NCBI GenBank assembly: GCA_026014745.1
Contig: JAOZHS010000002.1
Span: forward strand, 434,001 to 498,000
DNA: 64,000 bases
Source of the DNA: Candidatus Bathyarchaeota archaeon
Lineage (GTDB): Archaea; Thermoproteota; Bathyarchaeia; Bathyarchaeales; Bathycorpusculaceae
Direction of reading: 5' to 3'
A program made the position numbers and the translations under genes. Below the pieces are notes generated by a model. That model saw only the letters and a list, made by a program, of their open reading frames with translations, searched no databases and had not been told where the DNA came from. This document shows positions 25 through 8,758 of this stretch, piece after piece (the stretch's first letter is position 1; each line of letters starts with the position of its first letter).

Positions 25-891
25 ATGTTACGTTTGGGTATGGCATACCAGCCAAGGATAAATTCGCCTCGACGCAGCCCAAATGAATTCAAAAAGCCAC
101 TTCGAGAGAGGCGTAAAGACAAAAAACGCAGCCCCCGCCACAACCCGTCCCTCGAAGAGAAGCTTACTCCAAGTGTGCGTGACGTATCCGAGGCTACGCT
201 TAAGCGGCTGCATACGTTGGGTAACCAAAAATTTGGTTCCTCCCCTTTTAGCCAACATTTCGACCGCTGGATAACCATAGTTGAGATTGTCATTGCAGAG
301 TTTGAAGCCCACCCAAACATCACGGTTGACGAGCAATATGTAAAGGAGCGTGAGCAGGCGCTCGCAGTCATAAAGCTGCAGTTAGAAGAACGCCGTAAAA
401 AAGAGGCTACTCTGGAACAGGAAATAAAAAACCTCGCCGACTGCAAAATCAACATCAAAAAAATCAACGCCGAATACGCCAAACACGCCAGCACCATTAG
501 GGCTCGAAAAAGAAGCAAACTAAAACGTCTCTACGCGACCGTTGAGGATCTCAAAAAGGAGCAAGAAATGATTGTTCAACTAAAGGCGGGCTTTTTCCGA
601 GGACTCTCCAAAAAGGAGAAGGAACAAAAAGAAGTAGCCATTGCTCAGCAGATAGATGAGAAACAGCGGGCGCTGGAGCTAGTTTTGTTAGAGTATTCTG
701 TTGCCCAAAAAACGCTTCGGGAAGAGTATGAGAGAAAAAGGGAACCCGAAGTGGAGCAAATGAAGGTTTTCCGCAAAAACGTAGAAAGCCTTGAGACGGA
801 TGGTTCTTTGGAGGAGCGCTGGTTTGCCTGTGAAGCCCTCATTGACGCGGTTAACTCTTTTCTGCAGAGAAGCACCCTCAAACCGAATTAA
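25..891 (+). CDS. Coiled-coil protein of unknown function
   Basis: I do not recognise this 288-residue protein. The first 50 residues are rich in Arg, Lys, Pro and Ser and look disordered and basic. From about residue 95 to 265 the sequence is dominated by Glu, Lys, Gln, Arg and Leu with few helix breakers, which indicates a long coiled coil. There is no signal peptide or membrane segment, so it is probably cytoplasmic. An in-frame ATG at position 40 is an alternative start. Little sequence is visible upstream, so operon membership on the left cannot be judged. It ends about 12 bp from the convergent HTH gene. Confidence 0.7.
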   Translation: MLRLGMAYQPRINSPRRSPNEFKKPLRERRKDKKRSPRHNPSLEEKLTPSVRDVSEATLKRLHTLGNQKFGSSPFSQHFDRWITIVEIVIAEFEAHPNITVDEQYVKEREQALAVIKLQLEERRKKEATLEQEIKNLADCKINIKKINAEYAKHASTIRARKRSKLKRLYATVEDLKKEQEMIVQLKAGFFRGLSKKEKEQKEVAIAQQIDEKQRALELVLLEYSVAQKTLREEYERKREPEVEQMKVFRKNVESLETDGSLEERWFACEALIDAVNSFLQRSTLKPN

Positions 892-903
892 GTCGGACTA
901 AGG

Positions 904-1098
904 TTAATCGTCAAAGATGAATAGGTCGTCGAGGGTGGTGTTTAGGGCTTTGGCGATGTCGTGGGCAAGTTTAATGGAGGGGTTGTATTCGCCTTTTTCT
1001 ATGAAGAGGATGGTTTCGCGGCGGACGCCTACTTTTCGGGCAAGGTCCTCTTGGGTAAGGTTGTAGCGTGCCCTGAACTCTTTAATTTTGGTTCTCAA
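904..1098 (-). CDS. Small HTH (Xre/Cro-CI type) regulator
   Basis: A 64-residue protein that is almost only a helix-turn-helix domain (residues 3-58, with the typical [11 protein letters not shown] and recognition-helix pattern followed by IEKGEYNPS). Such stand-alone Xre proteins are DNA-binding repressors. Its ATG overlaps the stop of the upstream membrane gene by 4 bp, so the two are co-transcribed and translationally coupled. HTH plus DUF2178 membrane protein is a recurrent archaeal and bacterial pair. A palindrome near the operon promoter (1534-1550) suggests autoregulation (inference). Confidence 0.9.
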
Positions 1099-1511
1099 GC
1101 TCGTCTCTTCCGCATAAGGTAAATGTAGGATATTGCAAACACTAAGCCGCTGATAAGGACTACTGCTCCAGAAACTTGGTCTGTGGGCAGTTCGTAGTTG
1201 AAGATTATGTCTACGAAAAGAGGGGCGAAGACTGCGCTCCAGATTGCGGCTATGAAGGCGTAGTAGCCTGCTTGGTAGGTTATGTTTTTTGTTCTTTCGT
1301 CTCCGACGGGGAGTCCTTTTGAGACGTTTTTGGTCATGTCGCTTAGGATGTAGAGGGCGAAGATGACTATTATTACGATTATGGCGAGGATGGCGATTTC
1401 GTCGTATTGGATGGATTGGGTGTTTGTTAGGTAGAGTGTTAGGGTTACGAGGACTATTGCGACAACCATGATTCCGAGGGTTATGAGGAGTTTTGATTTC
1501 ATTTTAACCAC
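1095..1511 (-). CDS. DUF2178-like four-helix membrane protein
   Basis: A 138-residue protein with four hydrophobic segments, about residues 8-28, 40-60, 78-102 and 113-132, and a short loop containing GDERT between helices 2 and 3. This matches the small DUF2178 membrane family, whose role is unknown. A second in-frame ATG lies at 1502. It is the first gene of a two-gene operon with the HTH regulator. A membrane sensor or partner for the regulator is possible, but nothing in the sequence proves it. Confidence 0.8.
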
Positions 1512-1533
1512 TTTTGTTATTTATAGCTAATAA

Positions 1534-1550
1534 TATGTTAGATAAACATA
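1534..1550. promoter_or_regulatory. Palindromic operator candidate before HTH/DUF2178 operon
   Basis: Inverted repeat with arms TATGTT (1534-1539) and AACATA (1545-1550) around a 5-nt spacer. It lies between the TATA-like box at 1553-1562 and the start codon at 1511, where bound protein would block transcription. A wider pair, TTGTTAT (1514-1520) and ATAACAA (1549-1555), flanks it. Confidence 0.45.
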
Positions 1551-1552
1551 AC

Positions 1553-1562
1553 AAATATTTAA
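1553..1562 (-). promoter_or_regulatory. TATA box of HTH/DUF2178 operon
   Basis: Read on the minus strand this is TTAAATATTT. It places the transcript start near 1528-1530, just ahead of the start codon at 1511. Confidence 0.45.
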
Positions 1563-1575
1563 GCCTTGCCAACAA

Positions 1576-1590
1576 CCCCCCCCCCCCCCC
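1576..1590. repeat. 15-base poly-C tract
   Basis: Fifteen consecutive C in the gap between the 3' end of the acetyltransferase gene and the promoter of the HTH/DUF2178 operon. Such homopolymers are prone to slippage, or could be an assembly artefact. Confidence 0.9.
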
Positions 1591-1628
1591 AACCGCCAAA
1601 GACAAAAACAAAACCCCTCAAAAAACAG

Positions 1629-2102
1629 CTAAAAATCTTCCCGAACCAACCGATACAAAAACCACTCCAAACAACGCGCCCCATTCCGCTCATAAAACAC
1701 CTGCGCAGACCGATTCCACTTCAACACCGAAAACTCAATCCGACCACAACCCTCCTGCTTAGCAACCTCCTTTATGAAAGCAAAAATTTTCGACCCCACC
1801 CCGTGTCCGCGGTACTCTTCGAGCACAAAAATATCCTCCAAAAACAGCGTAGGCAAGGCAAGAAAGCTCGAGTAGGTAAAAAAGTAGATAAAGTAAGCGA
1901 CAGGTTTGCCGTTGACCGCGCCGATGTAGGCTTGGTATCGGGGGTTGGTGGCTAAGCAGTCGCGGCGCAGCCTTTCTTTGGCTTCCTCGTCGGGCGGAGC
2001 TAGCTGCTCGTATTCGGCTAGTTTGTCGATTAAGCTTAAGAAATCTTGAATTGTTTCGGCGTTTACCTTTTGGAGAGCCACGGCAGGTTCCTTGTTTGGC
2101 AT
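1629..2102 (-). CDS. GNAT-family N-acetyltransferase (SSAT-like)
   Basis: A 157-residue enzyme that would transfer acetyl from acetyl-CoA to an amino group of a small molecule. The acetyl-CoA loop RGHGVG sits at residues 98-103 after the LEDIFVLEEY strand. The C-terminal WNRSAQVFYERNGA signature follows. The layout is like the diamine/spermidine or thialysine acetyltransferase subgroup, but the substrate cannot be read from the sequence. It is cytoplasmic and monocistronic. Its downstream side runs into the poly-C tract. Confidence 0.88.
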   Translation of the reverse strand: MPNKEPAVALQKVNAETIQDFLSLIDKLAEYEQLAPPDEEAKERLRRDCLATNPRYQAYIGAVNGKPVAYFIYFFTYSSFLALPTLFLEDIFVLEEYRGHGVGSKIFAFIKEVAKQEGCGRIEFSVLKWNRSAQVFYERNGARCLEWFLYRLVREDF

Positions 2103-2321
2103 ATCGGGTTATTGGTTGGTTTTGTACTAAAGCGTTTGCTCACCTCATGCCTTTTTCTTTGGCGTTATCCGTTTGTGCAATTGAGCGCTGGCATGGTTGA
2201 CTAACATAAATATCACCGTTTTTTTGCTTGCAATACAGCTTACCATATTTCATGCATTTTTTGTTAATTTTTGGTTTTGTGAGCTTGTTTTTGCAATAAA
2301 ACTGAGTTCTTTTTCAGAAGA

Positions 2322-2330
2322 GTATAAAAG
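2322..2330 (+). promoter_or_regulatory. TATA box of GH5-like gene
   Basis: GTATAAAAG, 47 bp before the TTG start at 2377. A transcript start near 2350 would give a short leader containing the purine-rich AGGAAGAGAG. Confidence 0.5.
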
Positions 2331-2376
2331 GGATGGTGCATAAAGAGGGTTTCAAAATTTAGGAAGAGAGAAAAAA

Positions 2377-3936
2377 TTGAAAATAGGCAACATAGGCGAT
2401 ACACTGCACTCCATAAATCTTCGCAAACGCGCAAAGCCACTCGCCCTTTGCATCACCGCACTATTCATTATAAGCACACTCACAGCGTTATCCTCAAGCA
2501 CTGTCCAAGCATCAGTAACGCCTGCTCTACACACCTCAGGTCGCTCCATCGTAGACCAAAACGGAAACACCGTCTATTTACGCGGCATGGGTCTCGCAGG
2601 CATGGCACCCAACCTTCTTCTTTGGGGGCCCTCTGGCACTGACAACTGGGGAGTTCAATGGAATCCTGACCCCGCAATAATGGACCAAACCTTCGCATCA
2701 CTTCAATCAGATTGGCACGTTAACATGATACGTGTGTTCGTTTTACCAAGCTGGTACTACCGTGACAATATCGTACCCGCACAAGAAGACCCCAACGCAT
2801 ACTCACAAACCGCCATCAGCACCCGCGCTTATCTACGCACACTCTGTCAAGAAGCAGACAAATACGGAATCTACGTAGACATCGTCCCCTACATGCTAAC
2901 ACCCCCCGTCAGCTCTTTTAGCAATGACCTCTATGCCACCAGCAACTTTGGCTGGCAAGGACTACCAATGATGGGCTGGGACGAATCAGGCAACAGATTC
3001 CTCAGCGACGCAGGCTACGCAGGCAACGAACAGGGCTTCTGGAACTGGTTCTGGACGGACATGGCAAACAACCTCAAAAACTGCCCTAACGCAATCTTTG
3101 AAGCATGGAACGAACCTGGCTGGGGCGGCGGAGACGTCGAACCTATCCCAGCAGGCTACATGACCTATCTGCAAACCATGTACAACGCCATACGCGGAAC
3201 AGGCTCAAACAACTTAGTCATGATACAATGGAGAATGGGCTGGAACCCCAACAACTACGGCGGAACCCTAGCATGGACATCAGACGTAAACAACGCACTA
3301 AACCCAACAAACGTGGTGTACACAACACACTTCTACTACTATGCACCCGCTGACCTCACAGGTTACTGGGCAACCGACTATAACACACTCAAAACTCAAG
3401 TACAAACCGCCATAGACAGCATGGGCATCGTGGCGCCACTGGTTATCAACGAGGAAGGTTCATGTACCATTCGCTCGGTTAATCGGGCTAACGACTGTAC
3501 ATGGTGGCAAAACCTCCTCATGGTTCAACGTGACTTAGGCATAGGCGCAGGAGCCTACTATTGGCTTAGCGACTCAGGACTAGGCGGAATCTATGCAGGA
3601 GAAGCACTACTTAGCAGCGGCTACTTACCTAACGACATGGGCCAAATCTACATCAACACATACGTACCCACACCAGAGACCACTGCAACTGCGACATCAA
3701 CTCCAGAAGCAACATCAACAGCTACAACTACTACAGCAACAACAACAGTAGCACCAACGGATACACCAACCGCGACTCCTCAACCGACTATTGCCCCAAC
3801 AGCAACACCAACAGAACAGCCAACAACCCCAGAACCTACCGAAAACGCACCGTATCAGCAACTTGTTCACCATTGCTTTAGTCAATGGCGTTTAATGCTT
3901 TGGTCGCCCCTTGATTTGTGGTTCTCCCAACTTTAG
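2377..3936 (+). CDS. Secreted GH5-like glycoside hydrolase
   Basis: A 519-residue protein starting at TTG, preceded by AGGAAGAGAG. Residues 15-46 form a basic region plus hydrophobic signal peptide. Residues 48-430 are a TIM-barrel hydrolase resembling GH5 or related cellulase/mannanase families. The acid/base Glu is E246 in EAWNEP and the probable nucleophile is E359 in VINEEG. It should cut beta-linked polysaccharide outside the cell; the substrate is unknown. A Thr/Pro/Ala-rich linker (about 430-488) follows, as in cell-wall-tethered archaeal proteins. The last 30 residues contain no clear membrane anchor and may be frameshifted. It converges on the Clp gene with a 50-bp gap. Confidence 0.85.
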   Translation: MKIGNIGDTLHSINLRKRAKPLALCITALFIISTLTALSSSTVQASVTPALHTSGRSIVDQNGNTVYLRGMGLAGMAPNLLLWGPSGTDNWGVQWNPDPAIMDQTFASLQSDWHVNMIRVFVLPSWYYRDNIVPAQEDPNAYSQTAISTRAYLRTLCQEADKYGIYVDIVPYMLTPPVSSFSNDLYATSNFGWQGLPMMGWDESGNRFLSDAGYAGNEQGFWNWFWTDMANNLKNCPNAIFEAWNEPGWGGGDVEPIPAGYMTYLQTMYNAIRGTGSNNLVMIQWRMGWNPNNYGGTLAWTSDVNNALNPTNVVYTTHFYYYAPADLTGYWATDYNTLKTQVQTAIDSMGIVAPLVINEEGSCTIRSVNRANDCTWWQNLLMVQRDLGIGAGAYYWLSDSGLGGIYAGEALLSSGYLPNDMGQIYINTYVPTPETTATATSTPEATSTATTTTATTTVAPTDTPTATPQPTIAPTATPTEQPTTPEPTENAPYQQLVHHCFSQWRLMLWSPLDLWFSQL

Positions 3937-3985: not shown

Positions 3986-6724
3986 CTACGCTGGAATAGG
4001 CTGCGACTGCTCCTTAGCAAATCTTTTCGGACCCTTCGGAGGAGACTTCGGCTTAGGCGACTGTTTAGTAAAAATAGTTTTCCCAGTTTTAGCATCAAAA
4101 TCCACAGTTACCGCTTCGCCTGAACTTATCTTACCAGACAATATCTCAGTTGCCAGCGGCGTTTCGATAGTTGTTTGAATTTTGCGTTTAAGCTCGCGCG
4201 CGCCTAATTCGGGTACGTAACTAATTTCAGCCAAATGCCCAATTAAGGCTTCAGTGAAGTTTAGCTCGATTTTTTGTGACCGCGCCGCATGCTTTACCCG
4301 CTCAAGTTGAAGCCGCACAATCAGCTTTATCTGTGGTTTAGATAAGGCGTGGAATACGATGATGTCGTCGATGCGGTTGAGGAATTCAGGCTTAAATTGC
4401 ATCCGTAAAACCGTCATCAACTGTTCTTTGAGTTGCTCGTAGGTTTTGGGCGTCGGCGTTTGGAGGTTGTCTTGGATGAGGTCAGAGCCGATGTTAGAAG
4501 TCATGATGATTATGGTGTTCGTGAAGTCCACTACGCGACCTTTCCCGTCGGTTAAACGCCCATCATCGAAAACTTGGAGCAAAATGTTACTGACTGCTTG
4601 GTGGGCTTTTTCGATTTCATCTAGCAGAATCACAGAGTAAGGCCGCCGCCTAACCGCCTCAGTCAATTGCCCGCCCTCCTCATAACCCACATAGCCCGGC
4701 GGAGCACCAATCAAACGACTCACAGTGTGCCGCTCCATGTATTCGGACATGTCGATTCGGGTAAGCGCATTTTCATCACCAAACATGAACCATGCCAGAG
4801 TTTTAGCTAACTCTGTTTTTCCCACGCCCGTGGGACCCAAAAACATGAACACTGCAATTGGGCGTTTGGTGTCGGTTAGTCCCGCGCGGTTTCTCAGGAT
4901 GGCGTCTGAAACCGCTTGGACCGCCTCATCTTGACCTACTATACGTTCGTGGAGGCTTTCTTTCATGCGCAGCAGCTTTTCTCTTTCCGCTTCGGTTAAT
5001 TCAGAAACAGGTATACCGGTAATTTTGGAGACCACCTGCGCAACATGCGACGCTTTGACTTCTTCGGTGGTGACGCCTTTTTCTTTGCGCCAGTCGGCTT
5101 CTTTTTCGTCTCGTTCTTTTTCGAGTTTTTTGATTTCGGTTTCGAGTTTTTCGGCTTCTTTGAACCGCTTATGCTGCGATGCATACTCCCGTTCCCGTTT
5201 GAGTTTTCCGATTTGTTCATCAAGCTCTTTAACTTCGGGTGGACGAGAAGTTATGCCGATCCGGACTCGCGCCGCCGCTTGGTCTACCAAGTCGATGGCT
5301 TTGTCGGGGAGAAAACGGTTGCTTATGTAGCGCTCGGAAAGTTCTGCTGCGGCTACGATGGCTTCGTCGGTGATTTTGACTTTATGATGCGCCTCGTAAC
5401 GGTCCCTAAGACCCCGTAGAATCTCGATGGTCTGGGGAACGGTGGGTTCGGAGACAAAAATAGGTTGGAAGCGGCGTTCCAGCGCTGCGTCTTTTTCGAT
5501 GTGTTTTTGGTATTCGTTTAGGGTGGTTGCCCCGATTAGGTGAAGTTCTCCTCGGGCGAGATGCGGTTTGATGACTTGGGATACGTCTAAGCCGCCTTCT
5601 TCGCCAGTTCCACCTGCCTTCATGATAGTGTGAAGTTCGTCAACAAAGATTATGACTTCATCTTTGTGATTGACTATTTCGTCTAGAACCTGTTTGATTC
5701 TTTCCTCAAATTCCCCGCGATATTTTGAGCCCGCCACAAGAGAGTTTATGTTTAATTCAACAACACGCTTGTTCTGGAGTACCTCGGGCACTTCGCCGCT
5801 GACTATGCGTTGGGCTAAGCCTTCCACAATCGCGGTTTTTCCAACCCCCGGTTCCCCAATCAGGACAGGATTGTTTTTTGTGCGGCGAGACAATATCTCC
5901 ACCATTGTCTCAATCTCTGAGGATCTGCCGATTACGGGGTCAAGTTTGCCTTCTTTAGCCAGTTTGGAGAGGTCACGGGAGTATTTGTCAAGGTTGGGGG
6001 TGACGCTTTGGGTTTCCACGCGACCTTGCTGAGCGCCTTTACCGACTACTTTTATGATTTGTTGGCGCACCGCTTCAGGCGTTAAACCATACTTACGCAG
6101 CAACTCACCTGCCATACCGTCCTCTTCCTCCATTAAGCCGACCAGCAAATGTTCAGGACCAATGTAGCCATGACCCAGTTGCTGTGCAGCTTCAAAGGAC
6201 AACTCAAACACCCGCTTCACACGCGGAGAAATCCCCAACTCTTGGGGATGAACCTCTTTAGAGCCTTGGGGAGCATTATTTTCAATGTAGACGCGGACAT
6301 CTTCGGGTTTGATGCCGAATTGCTTGTAAAGCTCCTTAACCACCTCGCTGTTTGAGATAGCATAAAGCAGGTGTTCAGTGTCGACTTCGTCGCGTTTTAA
6401 TTTTAGCGCGATTTGGGCGGCGTCTTGAAAGAGTTCTTTTGTGTGCTCAGAGAGGTATTGGTCGATGTCGATGGCTTCGCGATGACGAGGGAGGGGGTAG
6501 CCAAGCGCTGATGAGGTTTCGCCGAAGTCTGTGCCGAATTCGGAGAATAAATTGTCAAAGATGTTGCCGCCAAACATTCGGCTGAAAGGCGAGAACGATT
6601 GTTGCTGGAGCATCCGTAGGTCCTGCGCGCAAACATGCAGAATCCGTGATTGTCCGTTCTCGACAACTTTGACTTCAGCGGTGGCGGGTCTAGTTTTACA
6701 AATATCACAAATTAGTCTCGACAA
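3986..6724 (-). CDS. ClpC-like AAA+ unfoldase with N-terminal McsA-type zinc finger
   Basis: A 912-residue Hsp100 ATPase that would unfold or disaggregate proteins in the cytoplasm. Order of parts: a McsA-like CxxC...HxC finger (C6, C9, H30, C32); the Clp N domain (about 75-230); AAA-1 with Walker A GEPGVGKT at 290-297 and Walker B near 357-364; a short UVR-type middle domain (about 500-550) as in ClpC; and AAA-2 with GPTGVGKT at 630-637. The C-terminal tail is Lys/Pro rich. The region after TSNIG (744-775) has no VGF/IGF-type ClpP-binding tripeptide, so it probably does not feed ClpP. It is monocistronic. The TATA box at 6759-6767 leaves almost no leader. Confidence 0.9.
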
Positions 6725-6758
6725 AAATTAGCGCCCTGTGTTTTGGGGTTTTTAGGGG

Positions 6759-6767
6759 ATTTATACC
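6759..6767 (-). promoter_or_regulatory. TATA box of the Clp gene
   Basis: Minus-strand GGTATAAAT, 35-43 bp before the start codon. The transcript would be near-leaderless. Confidence 0.5.
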
Positions 6768-6910
6768 TTTGTGGTTACAAACCTAAGTTACAGAAATGCC
6801 GCAGTTCTCACTGGATCACCCAAGAAACGTAGCCCAGACCACGCAGTTTAACTACTATCAAACGTTAAAAGCCGCCTTGTTCCCGTATAGGGCTTTGATT
6901 TAGGTGCTGT

Positions 6911-7147
6911 TTAGTGGTTATCTGCCAACATCAGGGTCAGAGTTGAAGTAACGTTGGCGATTCTTCTCAGCTTGTAGGTTACTAGCTCTTTGAGTTCAGC
7001 CTGTGAACTCGCAGTGGCTTTAACTATCAAGTCATATACGCCATAAGAAACGTAAACCTCGTCTATGGTGCCTGCTTTTTTAACTTCACTTAAGACTTGG
7101 TCTTCTAAACCAGGGGACACCTTGAACAATACATATGCGCTTGGCAT
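6911..7147 (-). CDS. Stand-alone Lrp/AsnC ligand-binding (RAM) domain protein
   Basis: A 78-residue protein made only of the alpha/beta effector domain of Lrp/AsnC regulators (residues 3-75). It shows the typical GxYDLIVKA core and a C-terminal TSTLTLML strand. It has no DNA-binding helix-turn-helix. In archaea such single-domain proteins bind amino acids and can mix into oligomers with full Lrp proteins. It is monocistronic, with a TATA-like TATTTTATG at 7182-7190 on the same strand. Confidence 0.88.
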   Translation of the reverse strand: MPSAYVLFKVSPGLEDQVLSEVKKAGTIDEVYVSYGVYDLIVKATASSQAELKELVTYKLRRIANVTSTLTLMLADNH

Positions 7148-7328
7148 ATTAATCTACGGCAATATAATTGATGGGTGTTTGCATAAAATACTTGCGCAAC
7201 TTTGAGCGTTTGACTTCTTAGCAACTACCATCACGCCAACCACAGACGTTGATGCTTCTGGATTTTGGAGGATAAGTATTGTATAATTTGAGAAACATTT
7301 GGGTATAATCTTGTAAAATCTATTTAAT

Positions 7329-7336
7329 CTATATAC
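7329..7336 (+). promoter_or_regulatory. TATA box of the DUF4956/VTC operon
   Basis: CTATATAC, 39-46 bp before the ATG at 7375. The purine-rich ribosome site AAGGAAGAA (7361-7369) follows the expected transcript start. Confidence 0.5.
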
Positions 7337-7374
7337 GCCTACGATTTTTCAAAAACCAAAAAGGAAGAATTAAA

Positions 7375-8037
7375 ATGGATTTACAGCAGCTATGGTCAGA
7401 TTTCATAAGCGCCTCAACAAGCTATGAATCGATTACGGTAGATAGAGTCATCTTAGCGTTGCTTTTCTCATTCGCAATCAACATGCTGATTTTCTATATT
7501 TACCGAAGAACCTTCAAAGGCGTCATCTATAACCGCCAATTCAACATAGGCTTAGTCCTCACAGGTTTAGTTGTGACTTTGGTGGTGTTGCCCATCAGCT
7601 CCAACGTCGCCCTCTCATTAGGCATGGTTGGCGCATTGAGCATTGTGCGTTTTCGAACAGCCATCAAAGACCCCAAAGATATAGTGTTCACGTTTTGGAC
7701 CATAGCCGTAGGAATAATCTGTGGTGCAGGACTGTACATGATTGCCATAGTGGGCGTCCCCATAATCGCGGGCATGCTCTTCATATTAGAACGCACACGA
7801 TTCCACGGACCAGAACCCTACCTTCTGGTAGTTCACTATAAAAGTGAAGCAGAAGCCGCCGTTCAAGCTGCCCTCCCAAAGCATAAGATTCGTTCTCGAA
7901 CGGTAAACAGTGACGGCGTCGAATTGATGGGAGAAGTCAGAATGAACAATAGCGAGATTCCAAAGGTTGATGAACTCTTAAAAATTGAAGGCGTAAAAGA
8001 TGCGGCTGTTGTAAGCTACACCGCTGATAACGCCTAA
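7375..8037 (+). CDS. DUF4956 membrane protein
   Basis: A 220-residue protein with about four membrane helices (residues 22-42, 58-78, 80-92 and 105-140) and a cytoplasmic C-terminal domain of about 70 residues. The SLGMVGALSIVRFRTAIKDP stretch between helices is the family hallmark. DUF4956 proteins are regularly encoded beside VTC-domain polymerases, as here: the next gene starts 22 bp downstream. The biochemical role is unknown. A membrane partner of the VTC enzyme is the usual inference. Confidence 0.88.
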   Translation: MDLQQLWSDFISASTSYESITVDRVILALLFSFAINMLIFYIYRRTFKGVIYNRQFNIGLVLTGLVVTLVVLPISSNVALSLGMVGALSIVRFRTAIKDPKDIVFTFWTIAVGIICGAGLYMIAIVGVPIIAGMLFILERTRFHGPEPYLLVVHYKSEAEAAVQAALPKHKIRSRTVNSDGVELMGEVRMNNSEIPKVDELLKIEGVKDAAVVSYTADNA

Positions 8038-8059
8038 CCCTTTTTTGGGGGCAAAAAAA

Positions 8060-8758
8060 ATGTCTGTTAGAAGACGAGAACTGAAGTACGCCATTGACCA
8101 ATTAGAATACCAAGTTTTAAGAAGTAAACTAGCAACCATTTTGAAGCCTGACCCCAACATGCGTAAAAGCAACTACGTGATAAGAAGTCTCTACTTTGAT
8201 GACCTTTCAAACACGGCTTTTTGGGAGAAAGAATCAGGCGAATTCCACAGAAAAAAGTACAGGCTCCGCATCTACAATCTTGATGATTCTCTGATAAAGT
8301 TCGAACGAAAAAGCAAAGATGGCAGTTACGTATACAAGGAAACAACCCTTGTAACTCGTGAAAACGCCGACCGCTTAATAGCTGGAGACTACAGTTTCAT
8401 AGCACACACAGACAACGCGATTTTGAGGGATTTCTATGCAGAGGCTTCCTGTAAACTTATGCGGCCCGTAGTTATTGTAGAGTACGACCGCGAAGCGTAT
8501 CAACAGCCCATCGGTAGAGTCAGAGTCACTTTTGACAAACGATTGCGAACCAGCGTGACTGCTAAAGACTTTTTTGACCCCCACGCTACTCTAATGAGTG
8601 CTCTAGACCAGCCGAATATAGTGTTAGAAGTCAAATACACCGAGGTATTACCCACTTACCTCAAGGGGCTGTTTCCAGATACGATTAAGCCGCAGTTGGC
8701 TATCGGAAAGTTTTCTATCTGCAGAGAACAACAAATGTGCCAAACAGGTTACCCATAA
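8060..8758 (+). CDS. VTC-domain protein (polyphosphate polymerase-like)
   Basis: A 232-residue protein belonging to the tunnel-fold VTC/CYTH-like superfamily. The order of charged strands (RRELKYAI near the start, YVIRSLYFDD, KYRLRIYN, KFERKSK, then VIVEYDR, VRVTFD and VLEVKYTE) is that of VTC4-type catalytic domains, which make polyphosphate from ATP or sense polyphosphate. I chose ATG 8060 over an upstream in-frame TTG because GGGGG lies 7-11 bases before it. It forms an operon with DUF4956. Bacterial relatives also sit with CotH kinases and beta-helix surface proteins, so a role tied to surface structures is possible. Confidence 0.85.
   Translation: MSVRRRELKYAIDQLEYQVLRSKLATILKPDPNMRKSNYVIRSLYFDDLSNTAFWEKESGEFHRKKYRLRIYNLDDSLIKFERKSKDGSYVYKETTLVTRENADRLIAGDYSFIAHTDNAILRDFYAEASCKLMRPVVIVEYDREAYQQPIGRVRVTFDKRLRTSVTAKDFFDPHATLMSALDQPNIVLEVKYTEVLPTYLKGLFPDTIKPQLAIGKFSICREQQMCQTGYP

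Follow-up and report, generated by a model that had tools for sequence, protein, structure and literature searches.

The literature defines ClpG proteins by four features: the domains N1 and N2, a middle domain with a single wing as in ClpC, and an extension at the C-terminus that is rich in Pro and Lys (PMC8024975). The N1 domain is a zinc finger with the ligands C6/C9/C31/H34, and loss of the finger abolishes disaggregation; an H34A mutant keeps most of its activity, suggesting that the fourth-ligand place is tolerant (PMC10641755). In Pseudomonas ClpG, N1 is the part that binds aggregates, and together with N2 it keeps the ATPase repressed (PMC8024975, PMC10641755). Fingers homologous to ClpG N1 occur in McsA and in the ClpE of Firmicutes, the latter already providing an example of fusion (PMC10641755, PMC13125188). 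Four Cys serve as ligands in ClpE, whose short N-terminal domain (approximately 81 residues) contains no Clp N domain and which has a VGF ClpP loop and ClpP as its partner (PMC13125188). Most archaea are described as being without Hsp100 proteins (PMC9133787). The ClpG literature recovered by our search, which covered open-access journal papers, deals with bacteria only and does not mention archaea, and the search returned no experiments on any archaeal ClpG.

The gene considered here lies in an archaeal window (the whole stretch of DNA analysed, 64,000 nucleotides) and encodes a 912-aa protein from a TTG start codon (Table 1). Pfam returned, in order, Clp_N (two repeats), AAA, AAA_lid_9, AAA_2 and ClpB_D2-small. 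By their sequence motifs, both AAA+ modules are intact, retaining Walker A, Walker B and the pore-loop Tyr, and E363, E703, Y335 and Y678 match E383, E723, Y355 and Y698 of published ClpG at a constant offset of 20. The AAA1 lid and the AAA2 linker are 95 residues apart, as in all 81 ClpG-type proteins parsed, compared with 97 in one ClpC and 156–160 in ClpBs. A sequence-only reading of this DNA had described one protein that combines a finger and a Clp N domain with a middle domain of ClpC size and two AAA+ modules, and the ORF, Pfam and motif data bear out this architecture. The gene neighbours one for a GH5 cellulase-type protein whose tail is Thr-rich and of low complexity (window 2377–3936, + strand). 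Elsewhere in the window, a VTC-domain protein of the polyphosphate polymerase type (8045–8758, +) stands beside a DUF4956 membrane protein (7375–8037, +) in this archaeal host.

Table 1. Features of the clpG-type gene (window positions) and the two archaeal loci in which hsp20 and clpG lie close together
Feature	Position	Strand	Basis
clpG-type gene	3986..6724	-	ORF; NCBIfam; identity to ClpK/ClpG
N1 domain, residues 1-45, zinc finger C6/C9/C32/D35	6590..6724	-	AlphaFold2 models; fold and profile matches to 8p66
N2 domain, residues ~87-235, Clp_N double repeat	6020..6466	-	Pfam; fold match to ClpC N domains
AAA1 module	5249..5992	-	Pfam AAA and AAA_lid_9; motifs
AAA1 Walker A	5834-5857	-	motif
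AAA1 pore loop, Y335	5705-5725	-	motif
AAA1 Walker B, E363	5636-5653	-	motif
Single-wing coiled-coil middle domain, residues ~493-547	5084..5248	-	lid-to-linker length
AAA2 module and D2-small domain	4103..5002	-	Pfam AAA_2, ClpB_D2-small; motifs
AAA2 Walker A	4814-4837	-	motif
AAA2 pore loop, Y678	4670-4696	-	motif
AAA2 Walker B, E703	4616-4633	-	motif
Loop after TSNIG, residues 747-776, site of the ClpP-docking tripeptide in ClpC	4397..4486	-	sequence
C-terminal extension, 25 residues, Pro/Lys-rich	3986..4063	-	sequence (final 24 letters not shown)
TATA-box-like TATAAAT, ~35 bases upstream of the start codon	6759..6765	-	read by eye; weak
hsp20 + clpG	L139:3343-3873 + 5545-8235		two archaeal loci, first
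hsp20 + clpG	L146:5303-5842 + 789-3467		two archaeal loci, second

The window protein scored 1248 bits with the NCBIfam ClpG model, 1182 with ClpK and 1025 with ClpB, the ClpG and ClpK models aligning over residues 1–894. Against a ClpG assignment, neither of the first two scores reaches the curated cut-off of 1900 for ClpG/ClpK; the ClpK of an E. coli plasmid also falls below it on the ClpG model (1304), suggesting that the cut-off marks particular variants and not the family. Both are narrow 'exception' models, and their cut-off is not part of the literature definition. All four defining ClpG features are present in the window protein, taking 20–40 residues rich in Pro and Lys as the C-terminal extension of ClpG/ClpK, and a translated plasmid search returned ClpK/ClpG-type proteins with 58–60 % identity over 97 % of the length. 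ClpG (100/100), ClpC (100/99) and ClpB (100/100) formed separate clades in a tree built from 36 proteins and 807 columns, with the window protein inside the ClpG clade (support 100/100); a 55-protein tree agreed.

These data bear on the proposal, made from the sequence alone, that the protein is a new McsA–ClpC fusion, i.e. a ClpC-type unfoldase that gained an McsA finger. The ClpC size of the middle domain, the homology of the finger to McsA and the return of ClpC1 as the best PDB chain by phmmer would all fit such an origin, but the tree sets the protein apart from ClpC with full support, refuting the proposal at the sampling used, and its ClpG-model score is far above the 758 of a cyanobacterial ClpC. 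It also lacks a ClpP loop, its genome has no clpP, and the finger is nearer to ClpG N1 than to McsA by profile and fold, leaving the ClpC fusion extremely unlikely. Rather, the protein belongs to ClpG/ClpK, which is defined by its N1 finger, and the gene product is very probably an archaeal ClpG. As such it would be an AAA+ disaggregase, a hexamer with two rings, that needs no ClpP and, by analogy, no recruitment of Hsp70. At the sequence level, N1, N2, the single-wing middle domain, two intact ATPase rings with pore Tyr, the lack of a ClpP loop, the lack of a ClpP match in the genome and the placement in the ClpG clade are all established. The fused finger is the hallmark of ClpG/ClpK proteins, which were already known; what is new is only that a few archaea have it.

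The finger of the window protein has the spacing C6-x2-C9-x22-C32-x2-D35, the 'HxC' of the sequence-only reading being H30-V-C32. AlphaFold2 predicted N1 as a beta hairpin (residues 16–31) followed by a helix (residues 33–43), with pLDDT mostly 81–94 over residues 1–40 and a mean of 82 for the model of residues 1–47. The first PDB fold match of this model was 8p66, the NMR structure of ClpG N1 (E value 0.008, a modest value that is expected for a model of only 47 residues), which speaks against the McsA-fusion reading. A profile of 28 N1 domains matched 8p66 with an E value of 1.6e-12, McsA (8wtb) with 3.4e-4 and ClpE (29hb) with 8e-4. The sequence-only reading had named a finger that proves to be a general motif as grounds for refuting it, and this applies in part: the finger is general in ClpG and absent from ClpC. 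A ClpE-type protein, in which a finger is likewise combined with AAA+ rings, has in its favour the homology of the ClpE N-terminal finger (PMC13125188), but the four Cys ligands, the short N-terminal domain without Clp N and the VGF loop of ClpE all differ from the window protein; ClpE is ruled out by domain order and loop, and we give it practically no credence.

The fourth zinc ligand had been described as replaced, and Asp35 does stand at this place. It is nonetheless ordinary, since Asp is the majority state in the ClpG family (65 Asp and 18 His among 83 distinct N-termini), which rules out a defective finger. We infer that zinc is bound via C6, C9 and C32, with Asp35 as the fourth ligand or with a fourth ligand that is weak or absent. 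V18 is the counterpart of the aggregate-binding V17 of Pseudomonas ClpG. A point against the ClpG reading is Glu22, a polar change at the place of the ClpGGI L21 contact, a position that also varies among published ClpGs (Gln). The ClpGs of Saccharibacteria (L034, L035, L036, L041 and L057) have a ligand set that differs from the CCCD form, the second Cys of the finger being Asp or Asn (CDID, CDMN) and the fourth ligand His.

As read earlier, the loop after TSNIG lacks a ClpP-docking tripeptide: no [IVL]G[FL] was found in its 30 residues, whereas the ClpCs compared carry LGF (five) or IGF (one). The ClpP loop is missing from 80 of 83 ClpG-type proteins. The tripeptide occurs in the other three (L093, L094 and L117, the last being the same gene as L095) as IGF in the AAA2 loop (SDIIMGRQxRIGFN); in these proteins, which come from Inquilinus limosus and from a record titled Mycobacterium sp. 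KBS0706, a docking motif of the ClpP type sits on a ClpG body. Checking for clpP, as had been suggested, found nothing of the ClpP family in the window genome (97.5 % complete) or in the clpG carriers G016, G144, G421 and G422, and G420 yielded just one relative, distant and weakly scoring (64 bits), making ClpP implausible as a partner. Archaeal unfoldases usually serve the 20S proteasome, and this general role, along with the lack of ClpP in the window archaeon, would suit a hexamer that unfolds its substrates into the 20S core with no release. However, the HbYX ending is absent from the window protein and six archaeal relatives, and we regard such a proteasome feeder as very unlikely.

The window genome also has DnaK and a canonical ClpB (G000:C2:634434-636995), so ClpG would be an additional, partner-free disaggregase there. 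ClpB contacts DnaK through its long two-wing middle domain. The presence of DnaK could be taken to indicate that the window protein is itself an Hsp70-dependent disaggregase working with DnaK like ClpB, but its middle domain is not of this kind (95 vs 156–160 residues), a canonical ClpB is already at hand and the ClpG carrier G422 has no DnaK match, so the probability of this dependence is slight. Returning to ClpG as a partner-free disaggregase, no ClpB match was obtained in the carriers G144, G420, G421 and G422, and ClpG may therefore be their only Hsp100. G422, a Bathyarchaeota genome without ClpB or DnaK matches, has two ClpG copies (L110 and L119). An hsp20 gene lies <2 kb from clpG in G144 and G422 and adjoins clpK on enterobacterial plasmids (L018); it is not beside clpG in the window genome. 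We tentatively suggest, as a possibility that falls somewhat short of probable, that in some archaea a horizontally acquired ClpG acts as the only Hsp100 and main disaggregase, without ClpB, apparently also without Hsp70 in one or more genomes, and perhaps with Hsp20 encoded nearby.

ClpG copies were found in six sampled archaeal genomes: the window genome, G016 of the same genus, G144 of another genus in the same family (copy 78 % identical), two Bathyarchaeota, of which one carries it twice, and a single record with the title Euryarchaeota. ClpG-type matches are rare: they turned up in 2 of the 398 genomes sampled from the phylum, in 2 of 25 searched genomes of the genus (the window's own included) and in 1 of 293 sampled genomes of the phylum of G420. 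The seven archaeal ClpGs form one clade (100/99), which adjoins Parcubacteria and Adlerbacteria of the Patescibacteria (99/95), and the C-terminal Pro/Lys extension is small or missing in most of the archaeal relatives. This clade was probably acquired from bacteria by horizontal transfer; transfer from bacteria to archaea is the likelier direction, although the tree itself does not settle it. Bin contamination is ruled out by the 892-kb contig, by the 78 % identical copy in another genus and by the archaeal flanks of clpG in L031, namely PTH2, TruD and an XPG/FEN-type nuclease, which are typically archaeal genes. A phage origin was rejected, as the best matches among phage records begin after the finger, and a conserved operon was rejected, as the neighbours vary between clpG loci.

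The congener G016 encodes a ClpG-type protein of 808 aa (L002:1409-3835, - strand) that is entirely without N1 and has a long branch (~0.6). A frameshift was rejected as the cause, no finger being found in any frame upstream. The protein may have lost aggregate targeting or altered its role, and its lack of N1 means that N1-dependent disaggregation is not universal in the archaeal ClpG clade.

If the protein behaves like Pseudomonas ClpG, a number of N1 fingers per ring would grip hydrophobic patches of an aggregate through their first beta strand, substrate binding would free the ATPase from the brake that the N1 and N2 domains apply, and both rings would thread the polypeptide out for refolding. 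The domain anatomy is observed, and these functional steps are carried over from the Pseudomonas protein. On this analogy, its most likely role is to pull proteins out of aggregates without a partner, under the control of its own N1 and N2; the earlier suggestion of a self-regulated disaggregase agrees with this published behaviour of ClpG. The archaeal clade would represent a one-gene disaggregation system that crossed between domains, and its members offer new natural variants for testing the grip of the N1 finger on aggregates. The Asp-ended finger is the majority form, yet it is not the form assayed in the published ClpG biochemistry covered.

Among known systems, ClpG of Pseudomonas aeruginosa (ClpGGI/ClpGGC) shares N1, N2, the single-wing middle domain, AAA1, AAA2, the Pro/Lys tail and the lack of a ClpP loop with the window protein, the copy of strain PA7 being 61–62 % identical. 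The window protein differs in its archaeal host, in Asp in place of His as fourth ligand, in Glu for L21/Q21 and in a shorter tail. ClpK, from the tLST heat-resistance locus of Klebsiella and E. coli, has the same domain order (58 % identity over 97 %) but stands beside hsp20 and has a finger ending in His. Firmicute ClpE shares a homologous fused N-terminal finger, which is placed directly before AAA1 with no Clp N domain between them. McsA, the activator of a protein-arginine kinase, has a homologous finger (by the family profile) but is a separate protein without AAA+ rings. ClpC resembles the window protein in the fold of its Clp N domain and the size of its middle domain, and differs in having no N1 finger, an LGF/IGF loop and a clade of its own, while ClpB differs in its two-wing middle domain.
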